Of a stretch of DNA of 64,000 nucleotides, positions 27,035 through 31,364 are shown in pieces (position 1 is the stretch's first letter; each line of letters opens with the position of its first letter). The position numbers and the translations under genes were made by a program. The notes beneath the pieces were generated by a model, which saw only the letters and a program-made list of their open reading frames with translations, was not told the origin of the DNA and searched no databases. This stretch comes from Methylobacterium sp. 10 (lineage in GTDB: Bacteria > Pseudomonadota > Alphaproteobacteria > Rhizobiales > Beijerinckiaceae), in the NCBI RefSeq assembly GCF_000519085.1, contig NZ_KI912577.1:3714035-3778034 (forward strand), given 5' to 3'.

Positions 27035-27427
27035 ATGCGAAACCGCCTGTTCTCGCGGTTCGGCCTCGCCGCCCTCTACGGCGGCATCGGCCTCCTCCAC
27101 CTCGTCGCCGCCGACAAGTTCCTCCCGATCATGCCCGATTGGGTACCCTGGCCGAGGCAGGTCGTGATCCTGACGGGCCTCTACGAACTCGCCTGCGTGG
27201 CGGGCCTGTTCTTCGCGCGCACCCGCCGCACCGCCGGCTACGCCCTGGCCGCCTACGCGATCTGCGTGGTTCCGGCCAATATCAAGCACGCGGTCGAGGG
27301 GATCTCCGTTCCCGGCCTGCCCAACAGCTGGTGGTATCACGGCCCCCGCCTCGCCCTGCAGCCGGTTCTGGTCTGGTGGGCGCTCCACGCCACGCGGATC
27401 GTCGATTGGCCGTTCGGGCGGCGGTAG
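27035..27427 (+). CDS. DoxX-like integral membrane protein
   Basis: 130 residues with four hydrophobic helices (AALYGGIGLLHLVAADKFL, ILTGLYELACVAGLFFA, YALAAYAICVVPANIKHAVEG, LALQPVLVWWALHA). This resembles the DoxX-like four-helix family of unknown function. It ends the pab operon. GTG 27017 overlapping the pabC stop is an alternative start; ATG 27035 begins closer to the first helix. A role in folate synthesis is not implied. Confidence 0.75.
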   Translation: MRNRLFSRFGLAALYGGIGLLHLVAADKFLPIMPDWVPWPRQVVILTGLYELACVAGLFFARTRRTAGYALAAYAICVVPANIKHAVEGISVPGLPNSWWYHGPRLALQPVLVWWALHATRIVDWPFGRR

Positions 27428-27464
27428 AGCGCGGGCAGCAGAACGGACCGAAGCGAGCCGATGA

Positions 27465-28295
27465 TCAGGCTTCCGAACGCTTCACCCGCTGCCAGGCGGC
27501 CTCCATGGCGGGAAGATCCGCCTCTTCCAGGCTTGCCCCACCCTCGGCGATCAAAGCCGCCATGGCGTGGAAGCGCCGCTCGAACTTGATATTCCCTTTT
27601 TTCAAGGAATATTCCGGGTCTATCCCGGAATGCCGGGCGAGATTCACCACCGCGAAGAGCAGGTCGCCGATCTCCTCGGCGAGGTGATCCGGGTCGTCCC
27701 GCCCGAGCGCGTCGGCCACCTCGTCCACCTCCTCGCGGATCTTGGCGATGACCGATGCCGCATCCGGCCAGTCGAATCCATGCCGCGCCGCGTTGCGGCT
27801 GATCTTCTCGGCCCGGGTGAGGGCGGGCAGGGCCTTGGCGACGGAGCCGAGGAGGTCGCTCCCGGCTTGTTCGGGTCGCGCGGTCTTCTCCGACCTTTCC
27901 GCCGCTTTCGACGCGGTCCAGTTGGCGTCGAGTTGCGCCAAGCTCAGGCGCTCGGGACCGTCCGCCAGCAGCGACCCATCCGCCTGGAACACATGCGGAT
28001 GCCGCCGGATCAGCTTGGCGCAGATCGTCCGGACCACGTCGTCGAAGGCGAAGCTCCCGGCCTCCTCGGCGACCCGTGCCTGGAACACGACTTGGAGCAG
28101 GAGATCGCCGAGTTCGCCTTTCAGCTTGTCGAGATCACCGCGCTCAATGGCGTCCACCACCTCGTAGGCTTCCTCCAGCGTGTAAGGCGCGAGGGTTTCC
28201 AGGGTTTGGGCCTGATCCCAGGCGCAGCCCCGTTCGGGATCGCGCAGGGCCGCCATGACATGCAGCAGGGTCTCGATCGGGGCTTCGGATGTCAC
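27465..28295 (-). CDS. mazG: Nucleoside triphosphate pyrophosphohydrolase MazG
   Basis: Hydrolyses NTPs and dNTPs to monophosphates plus pyrophosphate. 276 residues with the usual two MazG all-helical domains. The first has CAWDQAQTLETLAPYTLEEAYEVVDAIE and ELGDLLLQVVFQAR; the second has EEVDEVADAL and EEIGDLLFAVVNLAR. The acidic metal-binding ExxE pairs are intact. GTG 28295 is the start. The gene faces away from the replicon region that follows. Confidence 0.95.
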   Translation of the reverse strand: MTSEAPIETLLHVMAALRDPERGCAWDQAQTLETLAPYTLEEAYEVVDAIERGDLDKLKGELGDLLLQVVFQARVAEEAGSFAFDDVVRTICAKLIRRHPHVFQADGSLLADGPERLSLAQLDANWTASKAAERSEKTARPEQAGSDLLGSVAKALPALTRAEKISRNAARHGFDWPDAASVIAKIREEVDEVADALGRDDPDHLAEEIGDLLFAVVNLARHSGIDPEYSLKKGNIKFERRFHAMAALIAEGGASLEEADLPAMEAAWQRVKRSEA

Positions 28296-28986
28296 GGGCT
28301 CACCATGCTGGAGAAAGTCAGGGAGGGGGAACGGCGCAGGTCCATGCTCGGCCAGGGTTAGGCCAAGCGGCGGGGTCCCCTCAAGCCGGTGTCGCAGTAG
28401 GCGCGATCCACCTTCGTCTGTGCCGAACCTGTGGACCGGGAGAGGAGGAATTCTGGAAATTCCAAGATATCGATCAAAAACCCGTGCCGTCCGGTAAAGC
28501 GAACGACCTGCCGGCCCTTTAGGAAAGATATCAGTAACCTCTTTTTAGAGAGTCAGTTCAGCAAGTTATATGAGGCGGCGAATTCGCTTGTTCTTTCCGT
28601 AGGTTGAGACCCTTTTGCGTATCGAATTCTGCGCGGGGCCGTATCGAGGTCTGCGTGGCTGCGTATCGAATTCTGCGCTGGCGTGGCCCCGATCCGTATG
28701 GGATTCTGCGCCGATCCGTATGGAATTCTGCGGGGAGAACGGGGTTTGCCGGTGAAGTATGGGGATAGAACGGAATTCCGGCCCGTATTGAACTCTGCGT
28801 AGACTCCCGAACGGCCAAGGACCGGTCTCTTCCGACGGCGGGAACCCCGCACGTGTGCGGCCCCATTCCGGTTGCCGGATTTCGTGGCCGGACCCGTGGA
28901 TTGTTGGGATAAGATCCGGCCCCGGCGACTCCTGGCTCTGGAATCGTGCGATGGCGGGAGTTCAGTGACGAGAGCCGCCGGTATCG
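28296..28986. other. Putative iteron-type origin region upstream of repA
   Basis: A 690-bp gene-free stretch. It holds a TGGAAATTCCA box (28454-28464), an AT-rich segment (about 28505-28580, compared with the high-GC surroundings), and the six iterons at 28618-28799, followed by about 190 bp to the repA start. Order AT-rich region, iterons, rep gene is the classical layout of an iteron plasmid origin. I find no convincing DnaA box, only a partial TGTGGA near 28433. Confidence 0.7.
28618..28799 (+). repeat. Six direct iterons, consensus CGTATSGAATTCTGCG
   Basis: 16-bp copies start at 28618 (CGTATCGAATTCTGCG), 28640 (CGTATCGAGGTCTGCG), 28662 (CGTATCGAATTCTGCG), 28695 (CGTATGGGATTCTGCG), 28717 (CGTATGGAATTCTGCG) and 28784 (CGTATTGAACTCTGCG). 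All share one orientation. Start-to-start distances are 22, 22, 33, 22 and 67 bp, mostly multiples of 11, so the copies face the same side of the helix. This is how Rep-binding iterons are arranged. Confidence 0.92.
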
Positions 28987-30099
28987 ATGACAGCCATGGG
29001 GATCGAGGAGAAGCTCGCCCAGATCCGTGATCCCGACCTCCTGGAGGAGGTCGAGGCCGGCCGCGGCAGCTTCCTGTTCGGAAGCATCGTCGAGCATATC
29101 CTCCACCGGCAGCGTGCCCGCGAGGCCGAGGCGTCGAGCCTGCGCGAGGCCGCCGACATGCGCGGCGCCATGCCCCGCGACCGGCGCCGGCGCGATATGG
29201 TGCGCGAGGTCATCGAGAACGAACCGACCCTGCCGGAGAACCTGCAGCACATCCACAGCGTGCTGGCCCTGTGCGGCCTTCCCTACCGCGATCCCGGCGA
29301 CGACCGCGAGTTCTTCCGGGAATACGGACGGAATTCCCTCAGTCTGCTGGCCGGTCGACTCAAGAACCCGGTCAATGGCGAGATGGAGTTCCAGGGCCTC
29401 CCCTATGGCCCCAAGGCCCGACTCGTCCTCCTGCATCTCTGCACCGAGGCCGTGCGCCAGCGCAGCCCCACCATCACGGTGGCCGACAGCTTGTCGGGCT
29501 TCATGAAGGAGATGGGATTTTCCGTCACCGGCGGCGAGCGCGGCACGATCCGGCAGTTCAAGGAACAGCTCAACCGGCTCGCCGCCTGCACCCTGCAGAT
29601 CGGCCTCTGGGACGGCAGCGACAAGGCCAGCACCCTTAACGTGCCGCCTTTCCGCCAACTCGACCTCTGGCTCTCGCACGGATCGGGGGAGGGGCAGGTC
29701 TGGTCGAAGACCGTGCAGTTCCACCAGGATTTCTACGACAACCTGATCCAGCACGCCCTGCCGGTGGATATCCGCGCGGCCCGCGCCTTCGCCGGCTCGG
29801 CCCGCAAGCTCGATCTCCTGTTCTGGCTCGGCTACCGCCTGCGGGTGCTGCAGCGCCCTCTACGGCTCACCTGGTCTAACCTGCACAGCCAATTCGGCGC
29901 CGACAATGCCAGCATCCGCAGTTTCCGGCAGGCCTTCAAGGCCGATCTCGCCCATATGCAGGAGGTGTTCCCGAAGCTGCCTGTCTCCCTCGACGAGGCC
30001 GGCATGATCCTCCAGCCCGCCCATCCCAGTGCCCTGCTGGTGCCGCCCAGACTCGGCGGGGTGAAAGCAGGACCATCAAAGCGCGCCCTCGCGAGCTGA
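28987..30099 (+). CDS. repA: Plasmid-type replication initiator RepA
   Basis: A 370-residue protein of the plasmid-encoded RepA family of alphaproteobacteria. Family features: FQGLPYGPKARLVLLHLCTE (about 137-156), FMKEMGFSVTGGERGTIRQFKEQ, then FHQDFYDNLIQHALPVD, ARAFAGSARKLDLLFWLGYRL and LHSQFGADNASIRSFRQAFK, the predicted winged-helix DNA-binding part. The reading frame is intact. Start ATG 28987 or 28996; neither has a strong ribosome site. It lies just downstream of the iterons and upstream of the HARE-HTH gene. No parA, parB or mobilisation gene is visible nearby. Confidence 0.9.
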   Translation: MTAMGIEEKLAQIRDPDLLEEVEAGRGSFLFGSIVEHILHRQRAREAEASSLREAADMRGAMPRDRRRRDMVREVIENEPTLPENLQHIHSVLALCGLPYRDPGDDREFFREYGRNSLSLLAGRLKNPVNGEMEFQGLPYGPKARLVLLHLCTEAVRQRSPTITVADSLSGFMKEMGFSVTGGERGTIRQFKEQLNRLAACTLQIGLWDGSDKASTLNVPPFRQLDLWLSHGSGEGQVWSKTVQFHQDFYDNLIQHALPVDIRAARAFAGSARKLDLLFWLGYRLRVLQRPLRLTWSNLHSQFGADNASIRSFRQAFKADLAHMQEVFPKLPVSLDEAGMILQPAHPSALLVPPRLGGVKAGPSKRALAS

Positions 30100-30120
30100 G
30101 ACGTCTTCCAAATTCCAACA

Positions 30121-30177
30121 TGGAATATTCCATTCCGACGCACCATCTGCTAGATAATCCATAATTGGAATATTCTA
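30121..30177. promoter_or_regulatory. Two TGGAATATTCCA-type boxes before the HARE-HTH gene
   Basis: A perfect 12-bp palindrome TGGAATATTCCA at 30121-30132 and a near copy TGGAATATTCTA at 30166-30177, 45 bp apart, sit in the AT-rich gap between repA and the next ATG (30189). A related box TGGAAATTCCA lies before the iterons at 28454. They look like operator half-site pairs; which protein binds them is unknown. Confidence 0.55.
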
Positions 30178-30188
30178 TAGGTGCGACC

Positions 30189-30662
30189 ATGTTCCTGACG
30201 GAAGCCGAGGCCGAAGCACGCCTCTCCGATCTCCATCGCGAGCGGGCCCGGATCGAGCGAGCCATCGCCGACCTCACACTCTTCCTCGCTATCGGCCGCC
30301 AGATGTCCGGACCTGCCGGAGCGGCAGGGGACGGGCGGCGCGATCCGGCTCCGATCGCCCCGCGACCGGATTTTTCTGGATACGAGGAGCCCGCCCCCGA
30401 ATCCGGCAGTGACCGGTCGCAGGCCCGGCGCGAAGGCCGTCTCCTCATGGAGGCGGCCTCCGAGATCCTCGACGAGGCGGGTCGCCCCCTCCACGCCGCC
30501 GAGATCCTGGAAGGCCTGACCCTGCGCGGCCTGTCGGTCCCCGGCATCGATCCGGTGGCGGCCCTCAACACCCGGCTGTGGAAGCGCTCGGGGCCCGACG
30601 GTCCGTTCCAGCGCCTGGGTGACGCGGTCTATGCCCTCGCCTCCGGGCCCGACGACGATTGA
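30189..30662 (+). CDS. Protein with N-terminal coiled coil and C-terminal HARE-HTH-like winged helix
   Basis: 157 residues. Residues about 1-40 form a charged helix (LTEAEAEARLSDLHRERARI), 41-80 are a Pro/Gly-rich linker, and about 84-152 match the HARE-HTH pattern: LMEAASEILDEAGRPLHAAE, then EGLTLRGLSV, LNTRLWKRSG and FQRLGDAVYAL. HARE-HTH domains occur in RNA polymerase delta and restriction-type proteins and are thought to sense DNA. Adjacent to repA on the same strand, 89 bp apart. The function is not known; it may be a replicon regulator. It ends 3 bp from convergent inhA. Confidence 0.7.
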   Translation: MFLTEAEAEARLSDLHRERARIERAIADLTLFLAIGRQMSGPAGAAGDGRRDPAPIAPRPDFSGYEEPAPESGSDRSQARREGRLLMEAASEILDEAGRPLHAAEILEGLTLRGLSVPGIDPVAALNTRLWKRSGPDGPFQRLGDAVYALASGPDDD

Positions 30663-30665
30663 GGC

Positions 30666-31364
30666 TCAGAACCGCTCGTTCCGGGTGATCTCCGCGATGA
30701 TGGCTTCGCGGGCGGCGCGCGAGGCGGCGAATCGTGAGCGTGCGGCGGTGACCACCTCCGGCGAGGCCGTGCCGGGATGGCCCGCCGAGAAGGGCGGCGC
30801 CGGGGCGTATTCGAGCGCCAGCTGGATCGTCTCGGCCTCCGTCCGGCCGGCGAGTTCCGCCACCGCGGCAAGAGCGAAGTCGAGGCCGGCCGTGACGCCG
30901 CCCCCGGTGATGATCCGCCCGTCGCGCACGATCCGCTCGTCCACGGGAATCGCCCCGAACGCCGCCAGCAGGTCGAGGGCGCCCCAATGGGTCGTCGCGC
31001 GCTTGCCCCGCAGCAGGCCCGCCGCTCCGAGGATGAGGGCGCCGGTACAGACCGAGGTGACGAGGATCGGCCGCTCGGCTTGGGCGCGCACGAAATCGAG
31101 CACGGCTTCGTTCGTCATCAGGGCGTTCACGCCGACCCCGCCCGGAATGCAGAGGAGGTCGAGGGGCGGGCAGGCGGCGAGGTCCGTCGTCGGGGTCAGC
31201 GGCAGGCCGGTGGCGCTGGTGACGGTGGCGCGGTCGAGGCCGACGAGATGGACGCGCGCGCCGGGCAGCGAGGCGAAGACCTCGTAGGGCGCGGTGAGGT
31301 CGAGCTGCTGCACGCCCTCGAAGGTGAGGAGGCCGATCTCGAAGCGGGTTTCGGTCTGCGGCAT
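30666..31364 (-). CDS. inhA: Isonitrile hydratase (DJ-1/PfpI family)
   Basis: Converts isonitriles to N-substituted formamides. The 232 residues resemble Pseudomonas putida isonitrile hydratase along the whole length, from memory: FEGVQQLDLTAPYEVFASLP, CIPGGVGVNALM, nucleophile Cys in VTSVCTGALILGAAGLL (about 105), RATTHWGALDLL, TGGGVTAGLDFALA and ALEYAPAPPFSAGHP. It is divergent from an AraC-type regulator with its own DJ-1 domain, only 82 bp away. Other DJ-1 activities cannot be excluded. Confidence 0.85.
   Translation of the reverse strand: MPQTETRFEIGLLTFEGVQQLDLTAPYEVFASLPGARVHLVGLDRATVTSATGLPLTPTTDLAACPPLDLLCIPGGVGVNALMTNEAVLDFVRAQAERPILVTSVCTGALILGAAGLLRGKRATTHWGALDLLAAFGAIPVDERIVRDGRIITGGGVTAGLDFALAAVAELAGRTEAETIQLALEYAPAPPFSAGHPGTASPEVVTAARSRFAASRAAREAIIAEITRNERF

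Follow-up and report, generated by a model that had tools for sequence, protein, structure and literature searches.

The gene pair formed by repA, which encodes a replication initiator of the iteron-plasmid type, and a following gene for a HARE-HTH protein is, judged from the sequences compared, a chromosomal module of the genus Methylobacterium and not a plasmid trait. An intact RepA of the initiator family, phased iterons, an AT-rich block and a HARE gene with an array of half-sites at its promoter were found conserved across the genus sample, and this combination of initiator, phased iterons, AT-rich block and candidate regulator leads us to explain the module as an iteron-plasmid replicon that was domesticated and fixed in the main chromosome near the terminus, in which RepA would bind the iterons, the HARE protein would regulate and the output would be rare or conditional initiation; we regard this explanation as evenly poised between right and wrong. 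The initial annotation, which had proposed a self-regulated replicon or silencing device made of the two genes, is partly supported overall; that the module is chromosomal, genus-wide, close to dif and not found in the other genera of the family that were sampled goes beyond it.

The window, i.e., the whole stretch of 64,000 nucleotides analysed here, corresponds to positions 3714035-3778034 of contig NZ_KI912577.1, which comprises 4.97 Mb of a 4.98-Mb genome. The features of the module are collected in Table 1.

Table 1. Features of the repA/HARE module in the window (positions are those of the window)
Feature	Position	Strand	Basis or remark
Half-sites GGAAT (28447-28451) and ATTCC (28459-28463)	28447..28464	.	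Include TGGAAATTCCA at 28454-28464
Imperfect inverted repeat GTCC-N8-GAAC (genus consensus GTTC-N8-GAAC)	28489..28504	.	Conserved
AT-rich block TAGGAAA..TATCAG.AA...AGAGAGTCAGTTC...TTATATG	28520..28575	.	Consensus and GC dip, 63 loci
Six 16-bp iterons at 28618, 28640, 28662, 28695, 28717, 28784	28618..28799	+	Spacings 22, 22, 33, 22, 67
repA, iteron-plasmid-type replication initiator	28987..30099	+	PF04796 RepA_C, fold, dN/dS
Palindromic box TGGAATATTCCA, putative operator 1 of HARE gene	30121..30132	.	Letters and half-site array
Box TGGAATATTCTA, putative operator 2 of HARE gene	30166..30177	.	Ends 11 bp before likely start codon
HARE-HTH gene	30189..30662	+	PF05066; start by conservation; helix, variable linker, winged helix

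RepA and its relatives

RepA matches the RepA_C family (PF04796) with 73.3 bits (cut-off 26; E 3.9e-20). When its model was compared with 394 chains, the top 15 rows were all Rep/RepE or RctB (Z 5.2-9.6), the first being Rep with single-stranded DUE DNA (8ac8; Z 9.6 over 185 residues), and the initiator fold is one that the model shares with mini-F RepE54 on iteron DNA (1rep; Z 9.5 over 182 residues), Vibrio RctB (5tbf; Z 9.1 over 203 residues, with a further RctB row at Z 8.2), pPS10 RepA (Z 4.3) and RK2 TrfA (Z 4.2), the non-initiator rows reaching 4.3 at most. The paired winged helices of that fold are present in the model, though its pLDDT is only 65, a low confidence that counts against a domesticated replicon. 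Foldseek by itself also placed RepE and RctB first, at an E value of 0.05 that is weak taken alone; the RepA sequence had no match among solved structures at E ≤ 10, and NCBIfam assigned neither RepA nor the HARE protein to any family. Invariant residues, e.g., those of GSARKLDL, extend across 29 aligned RepAs including three plasmid ones, and alignments to remoter relatives begin at about ATG 28996, which may be the true start of repA. Its median dN/dS, computed among five close species, is the lowest of four genes (0.076, against 0.114 for DJ-1, 0.197 for MazG and 0.226 for the HARE gene). RepA is, at the level of its sequence, an intact member of the initiator family, and repA is under the strongest purifying selection among the four genes compared.

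A RepA relative was found in 59/59 Methylobacterium genomes and a HARE-protein match equally in 59/59, the one in G014 being weak, fragmentary and located at a contig end. The best RepA of G011 is only 65% identical, within the range of a paralogue (repA2), and its HARE gene lies near a contig end, so that repA1, the type to which the window gene belongs, was not seen there. A family-wide sample of 149 genomes yielded RepA in the 7 listed genus members and in 0/142 others (42 genera). In an order-wide sample of 397 genomes RepA was present in 9 genus members and 14/388 others; these 9 also matched the HARE profile, as did 5/388 others, all of them weakly, and both together were found in none outside the genus. 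Because scoring was limited to at most 8 first-look candidates per genome for HARE and 5 for RepA, remote relatives may be missing from these order-wide counts.

Seventy-seven named loci related to that of the window were compared, 76 of which belong to Methylobacterium or to metagenome bins of its family and one to Roseicella; by type they comprise 68 repA1, 8 repA2 and the remote Roseicella match, and the closest RepAs, M. bullatum included, are 95-97% identical. The HARE gene comes next after repA1 on the same strand in 66/68 loci, and the contigs of the other two end 239 and 357 nt past the repA match, which bears out the co-occurrence of the two genes that the initial annotation had put forward for checking. 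The paralogue repA2 (L144-L149, L156, L157), which occurs in the aquaticum/terricola group and is approximately 61-65% identical to the window RepA, has no such iterons upstream (0/8) and no HARE match nearby (0/7 loci with downstream sequence). A RepA relative can therefore persist without iterons or HARE gene, a point against the domesticated-replicon explanation. In a tree of 20 rows, from which five of eight other-genus rows were omitted as not re-framed, the Methylobacterium RepAs form one clade (support 100/100), with the three plasmid and three other-genus sequences falling outside it. In a single-contig genome of another family (G493, locus L237), a RepA relative (51%) is located at C1:2507838, about 210 kb from a dif-like site at 2297146.

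Relatives of RepA occur in 910 plasmid records, the nearest plasmid RepA being 49% identical. Bradyrhizobium septentrionale pBs1S1c and Xanthobacter dioxanivorans unnamed4 carry RepAs that share about 48-49% identity with it across 92-93% of the protein, with a ParA gene beside repA and no HARE profile match in the stretches examined. ParA stands beside repA in the three related plasmids viewed, whereas the window neighbours are mazG and a DJ-1/PfpI gene. This plasmid kinship, together with the well-established phenomenon of iteron incompatibility, would suit an anti-plasmid device in which plasmids of the same type, on entering the cell, are titrated or handcuffed by the chromosomal RepA and its iterons; we nevertheless consider such a device quite improbable given the distance of the nearest plasmid RepA, the lack of any match to the 587-bp origin region among 72,556 plasmid records at E ≤ 1 and the lack of such iterons, on inspection by eye, in the 900-bp stretches preceding three of these alphaproteobacterial plasmid repA genes. 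For 4 proteins PADLOC, which also speaks against it, returned no family at E ≤ 0.01, so that no sign of anti-phage defence was obtained. A plasmid-borne HARE homologue was sought in the same 72,556 records and rejected, none being found at E ≤ 0.01. Phage origin was likewise rejected, with no PHROGs family at E ≤ 0.1 and a single weak RepA match among 50,697 phage records. Rfam returned no known RNA at E ≤ 1 for window positions 27400-30700.

The region upstream of repA

From 5' to 3', the elements preceding repA are a half-site cluster, the inverted repeat GTTC-N8-GAAC, the AT-rich block and the iterons. The scan for the AT-rich block and DnaA boxes covered 63-64 sequences and those for the half-site cluster and the inverted repeat 64 each, the window included, these samples being made up of loci with enough upstream sequence and at least 3 iterons.

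At least 3 iterons were found in 65/66 sequences, with 392 iterons altogether; locus L140 has only one. The commonest spacings (22, 33 and 66-68 bp) are near multiples of 11 bp, and a minority measure 39-44 bp, among which those of 39-42 bp are not multiples of 11 and count against a domesticated replicon. Genome-wide, iteron clusters occur at repA alone in 12/12 genomes, with 0-4 scattered single sites elsewhere. At the AT-rich block, which is possibly an unwinding element or a promoter, the GC content dips from about 0.70 to 0.41 (63 loci). The inverted repeat was present in 56/64 sequences within 260-60 bp 5' of the first iteron (17/64 for the next-best spacing, N4); in 26/30 examples it starts 128-130 bp 5' of the first iteron, the remaining 4 starting some 22 or 44 bp farther off.

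The half-site cluster, located 100-240 bp 5' of the first iteron and found in 61/64 sequences, contains 127 half-sites against 66.0 +/- 8.1 in shuffles (maximum 82) and is weaker than the array at the HARE promoter described below. The stretch from the iterons to repA shows no clear enrichment (87 against 70.7 +/- 8.3 expected) and the AT-rich block none (28 against 28.4 expected). DnaA boxes are common, though not universal, in iteron-type origins; here the exact box TTWTNCACA was present in 3/64 sequences only and is not conserved, which argues against a domesticated replicon.

The direct, mostly helically phased iterons beside the initiator gene and their AT-rich neighbour resemble those of iteron-plasmid systems. 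Unlike these, the Methylobacterium module is carried throughout a genus by the main chromosome, close to dif, has its repA paired with a HARE-HTH gene and lacks a conserved exact DnaA box.

The HARE-HTH protein and its promoter

A profile search confirmed, narrowly, that the gene after repA encodes a HARE-HTH protein, as had been proposed from the letters, with 26.7 bits for PF05066 (cut-off 25.9); among 34 aligned homologues 23 match at E ≤ 0.01 (best 6.9e-10) and 11 have no match, and the member at locus L122 has no PF05066 match. The proposed coiled coil and winged helix also find counterparts in the AlphaFold model (pLDDT 82), which consists of a helix (residues 5-39) that is probably a coiled coil, a low-confidence linker (44-72), Pro/Ala-rich and variable, and a winged helix (approximately 73-152) with matches to winged-helix folds. 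Six weak matches among solved structures, mainly coiled coils, were obtained with the sequence (best E 0.039), and the Foldseek matches of the model include RNA polymerase delta (E 0.039). Conservation places the start of the gene at ATG 30189, not TTG 30165, so that the second box lies upstream of the gene and not inside it.

The winged-helix domain PF05066 is common to this protein and the HARE-HTH proteins of ASXL, RNA polymerase delta and restriction endonuclease fusions, unlike which the Methylobacterium protein is stand-alone, has an N-terminal helix and a long variable linker and is linked to an iteron replicon. Among 51 papers that contain the term HARE-HTH, none of 30 titles concerns a pairing of iteron replicon and HARE protein.

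The boxes were found where the initial annotation had placed them, and they turn out to belong to a larger array. The 160-bp stretches that precede the HARE gene contain 416 GGAAY/RTTCC half-sites in 63 loci, against 67.2 +/- 8.0 (maximum 84) expected from dinucleotide shuffles and 29 in control stretches of equal length downstream, each of the 63/63 promoters having 3-10. The count covers 63/68 repA1 loci (L085 and L105 are cut by contig ends; L090, L110 and L152 were not located) with HARE starts set by eye, that of L154 being a few bases off. The commonest arrangements in the 63 promoters are the exact palindrome GGAATATTCC, in which GGAAY directly precedes RTTCC (spacing 5; 35 cases), and RTTCC-N12-GGAAY (23 cases). 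The half-sites appear to be a conserved operator array, and the position of the gene and the DNA-binding domain of its product lead us to infer that it is the HARE protein which binds them. The suggested coupling of the HARE gene to repA through palindromic boxes thus stands in the form of an array conserved at the HARE promoter and, more weakly, 5' of the iterons; what all 63 promoters share is the cluster of half-sites, whereas the exact palindrome was counted 35 times in them.

The main alternative binder is RepA, dimers of which would occupy the half-sites as RepE dimers occupy the repE operator, with the HARE protein acting as an effector and not as a regulator. Plasmid initiators often repress through inverted repeats, and dimeric RepE on its operator (2z9o) is among the structural matches to RepA; yet the boxes are unlike the iterons, only 10/392 of which contain GGAAT or ATTCC, and this weakens the case for RepA as the binder, as does the location of the array at the HARE promoter and the presence of only 0-2 half-sites per 160 bp at 7 repA2 loci. 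We therefore think binding by RepA dimers unlikely.

The order of parts, helix, linker and DNA-binding winged helix, is also that of Bacillus subtilis Rok, and the Rok DNA-binding domain is among the fold matches (Foldseek E 0.037-0.042; VIA Z 7.9, rank 47). A HARE protein coating DNA widely in the manner of this nucleoid silencer, with an incidental link to repA, would fit that likeness. Against it, many winged helices match as well as Rok or better, the HARE gene adjoins repA almost invariably, as described above, and GGAATATTCC occurs just 3 times in 4.98 Mb, one of these sites being the one at 30122. Rok is reported to bind extended A+T-rich regions (PMC2978689), whereas the exact box occurs hardly anywhere else in the Methylobacterium genome; no sequence relation between Rok and the HARE protein was found. 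A Rok-like role accordingly receives little credence from us, and a genome-wide silencer, the broad sense of the silencing device first suggested, is not supported, given how few copies of the exact box lie outside this locus. Another of the three sites, at 27606-27615, lies inside the adjacent mazG and may be due to chance.

Integrated plasmids do occur, and a repABC region within the chromosome of strain DM4 is reported in the passages concerned of PMC2680597, so one could see in the module a fossil of such an integration with no present function. The presence of RepA in all 59 genus genomes searched, the repA dN/dS of 0.076 and the conservation of both iterons and putative operators are hard to reconcile with a functionless remnant, which we hold to be very improbable.

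Position on the chromosome

The terminus and origin were placed with the consensus sequences of KOPS, dif and parS. A dif-like site is located at 3,869,718 (L164:19718), exactly where KOPS polarity reverses, and the terminus was placed there; its core CATAAGATATATTATG was found once per genome in 13/15 Methylobacterium genomes. A second polarity reversal at about 1.1-1.2 Mb, with a parS core at 1,135,852, marks the inferred origin, single 20-kb samples between the two switches being noisy. GC skew alone was too noisy here for either placement, and the dif-like site supplies a terminus for a genus in which, according to the passages concerned of PMC2680597, strains AM1 and DM4 show no useful GC skew.

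At 3.743 Mb, repA lies about 127 kb from dif and, by the shorter way, about 2.4 Mb from the inferred origin. Its 4.97-Mb contig also contains dnaA (at 4.793 Mb), the dif-like site and the parS core and is therefore not an extrachromosomal replicon. A main chromosomal origin at repA was rejected, the KOPS switches being at 3.870 Mb and about 1.1-1.2 Mb. In the window, forward and reverse KOPS beside the iterons number 12:3 on the left and 15:6 on the right; polarity does not switch across the iterons, so that no bidirectional origin in regular use is located here, which weighs against a domesticated replicon.

The distance between repA and dif is 19-312 kb in 12/15 genomes, the 12 values falling into about three arrangements (19-23, 98-135 and 296-312 kb) and not being independent; no distance was obtained for G024 and G036, which have no clear dif, or for G016, in which dif and repA are on different contigs. 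In all 12 genomes repA is transcribed toward dif, which may be merely the usual leading-strand bias. The exact dif core is missing from G024 and G036, where relaxed matches are ambiguous and KOPS polarity is scrambled in 20-kb samples, which suggests large rearrangements of these chromosomes or a changed dif.

In many loci, MazG and pab genes are located 5' of the module, whereas loci of the brachiatum/fujisawaense type have 0/14 window neighbours within the flanks examined, L122, for instance, having a SpoU methylase and a carbonic anhydrase gene on either side of the repA/HARE pair. The neighbours thus differ between loci, from which it follows that the near-terminus position has outlasted the local gene order (about three independent cases).

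This persistence near dif, the unchanged polarity and the unconserved DnaA box would all suit a RepA that no longer initiates and whose pairing complexes with the iterons ("handcuffing") form a structural or regulatory site of Ter, with the HARE protein as an autoregulated cofactor, much as in MatP/matS except that a single locus is involved. MatP/matS, the organiser of Ter, is likewise a terminus-associated protein-DNA system; its matS sites, however, are scattered through Ter, whereas the iterons cluster at one locus, and the Methylobacterium proteins belong to another family. Phased iterons and an AT-rich block conserved together are, moreover, what an origin requires. A structural site is therefore possible in our view, though doubtful.

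Discussion

Under the explanation we prefer, a domesticated iteron replicon, RepA would bind its iterons as RepE and RctB bind theirs, as their conservation suggests, and the HARE-HTH protein would bind the half-sites, repress its own gene and, from the cluster upstream of the iterons, damp the activity of repA and the iterons. A self-regulated replicon, as first suggested, fits this anatomy of RepA, iterons and half-sites, its self-regulation depending on the presumed binding by the HARE protein. The output, the most speculative step, would be initiation that is rare or conditional, or else re-initiation, in the region of the terminus and not normal chromosome replication; with some uncertainty, we rank such initiation first and a structural role second.

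Iteron initiators, integrated plasmids and HARE-HTH proteins are already known separately. Among the titles and opening lines of abstracts found by searching the open-licence literature, none describes the pairing of repA with a HARE gene or an iteron module kept near dif in the chromosomes of a genus, and the passages concerned of PMC13342612, PMC7858055, PMC2680597 and PMC4290620 do not describe the module.

An integrated plasmid initiator is expected to decay or vanish because a second origin interferes with replication of the chromosome. In Methylobacterium such an initiator has been retained genus-wide close to dif, together with its iterons, and purifying selection on it is strong. It is a tentative and rather unlikely extension of our explanation that every Methylobacterium chromosome has a second, plasmid-derived initiation system for its terminus, repressed by the HARE protein and used conditionally, e.g., to finish or restart replication near dif. 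If true, this would constitute a fixed two-initiator bacterial chromosome. The module offers a candidate function and a candidate binding site for a stand-alone bacterial HARE-HTH protein, and it opens to direct test whether a second initiator can persist in a bacterial chromosome and what purpose it would serve.
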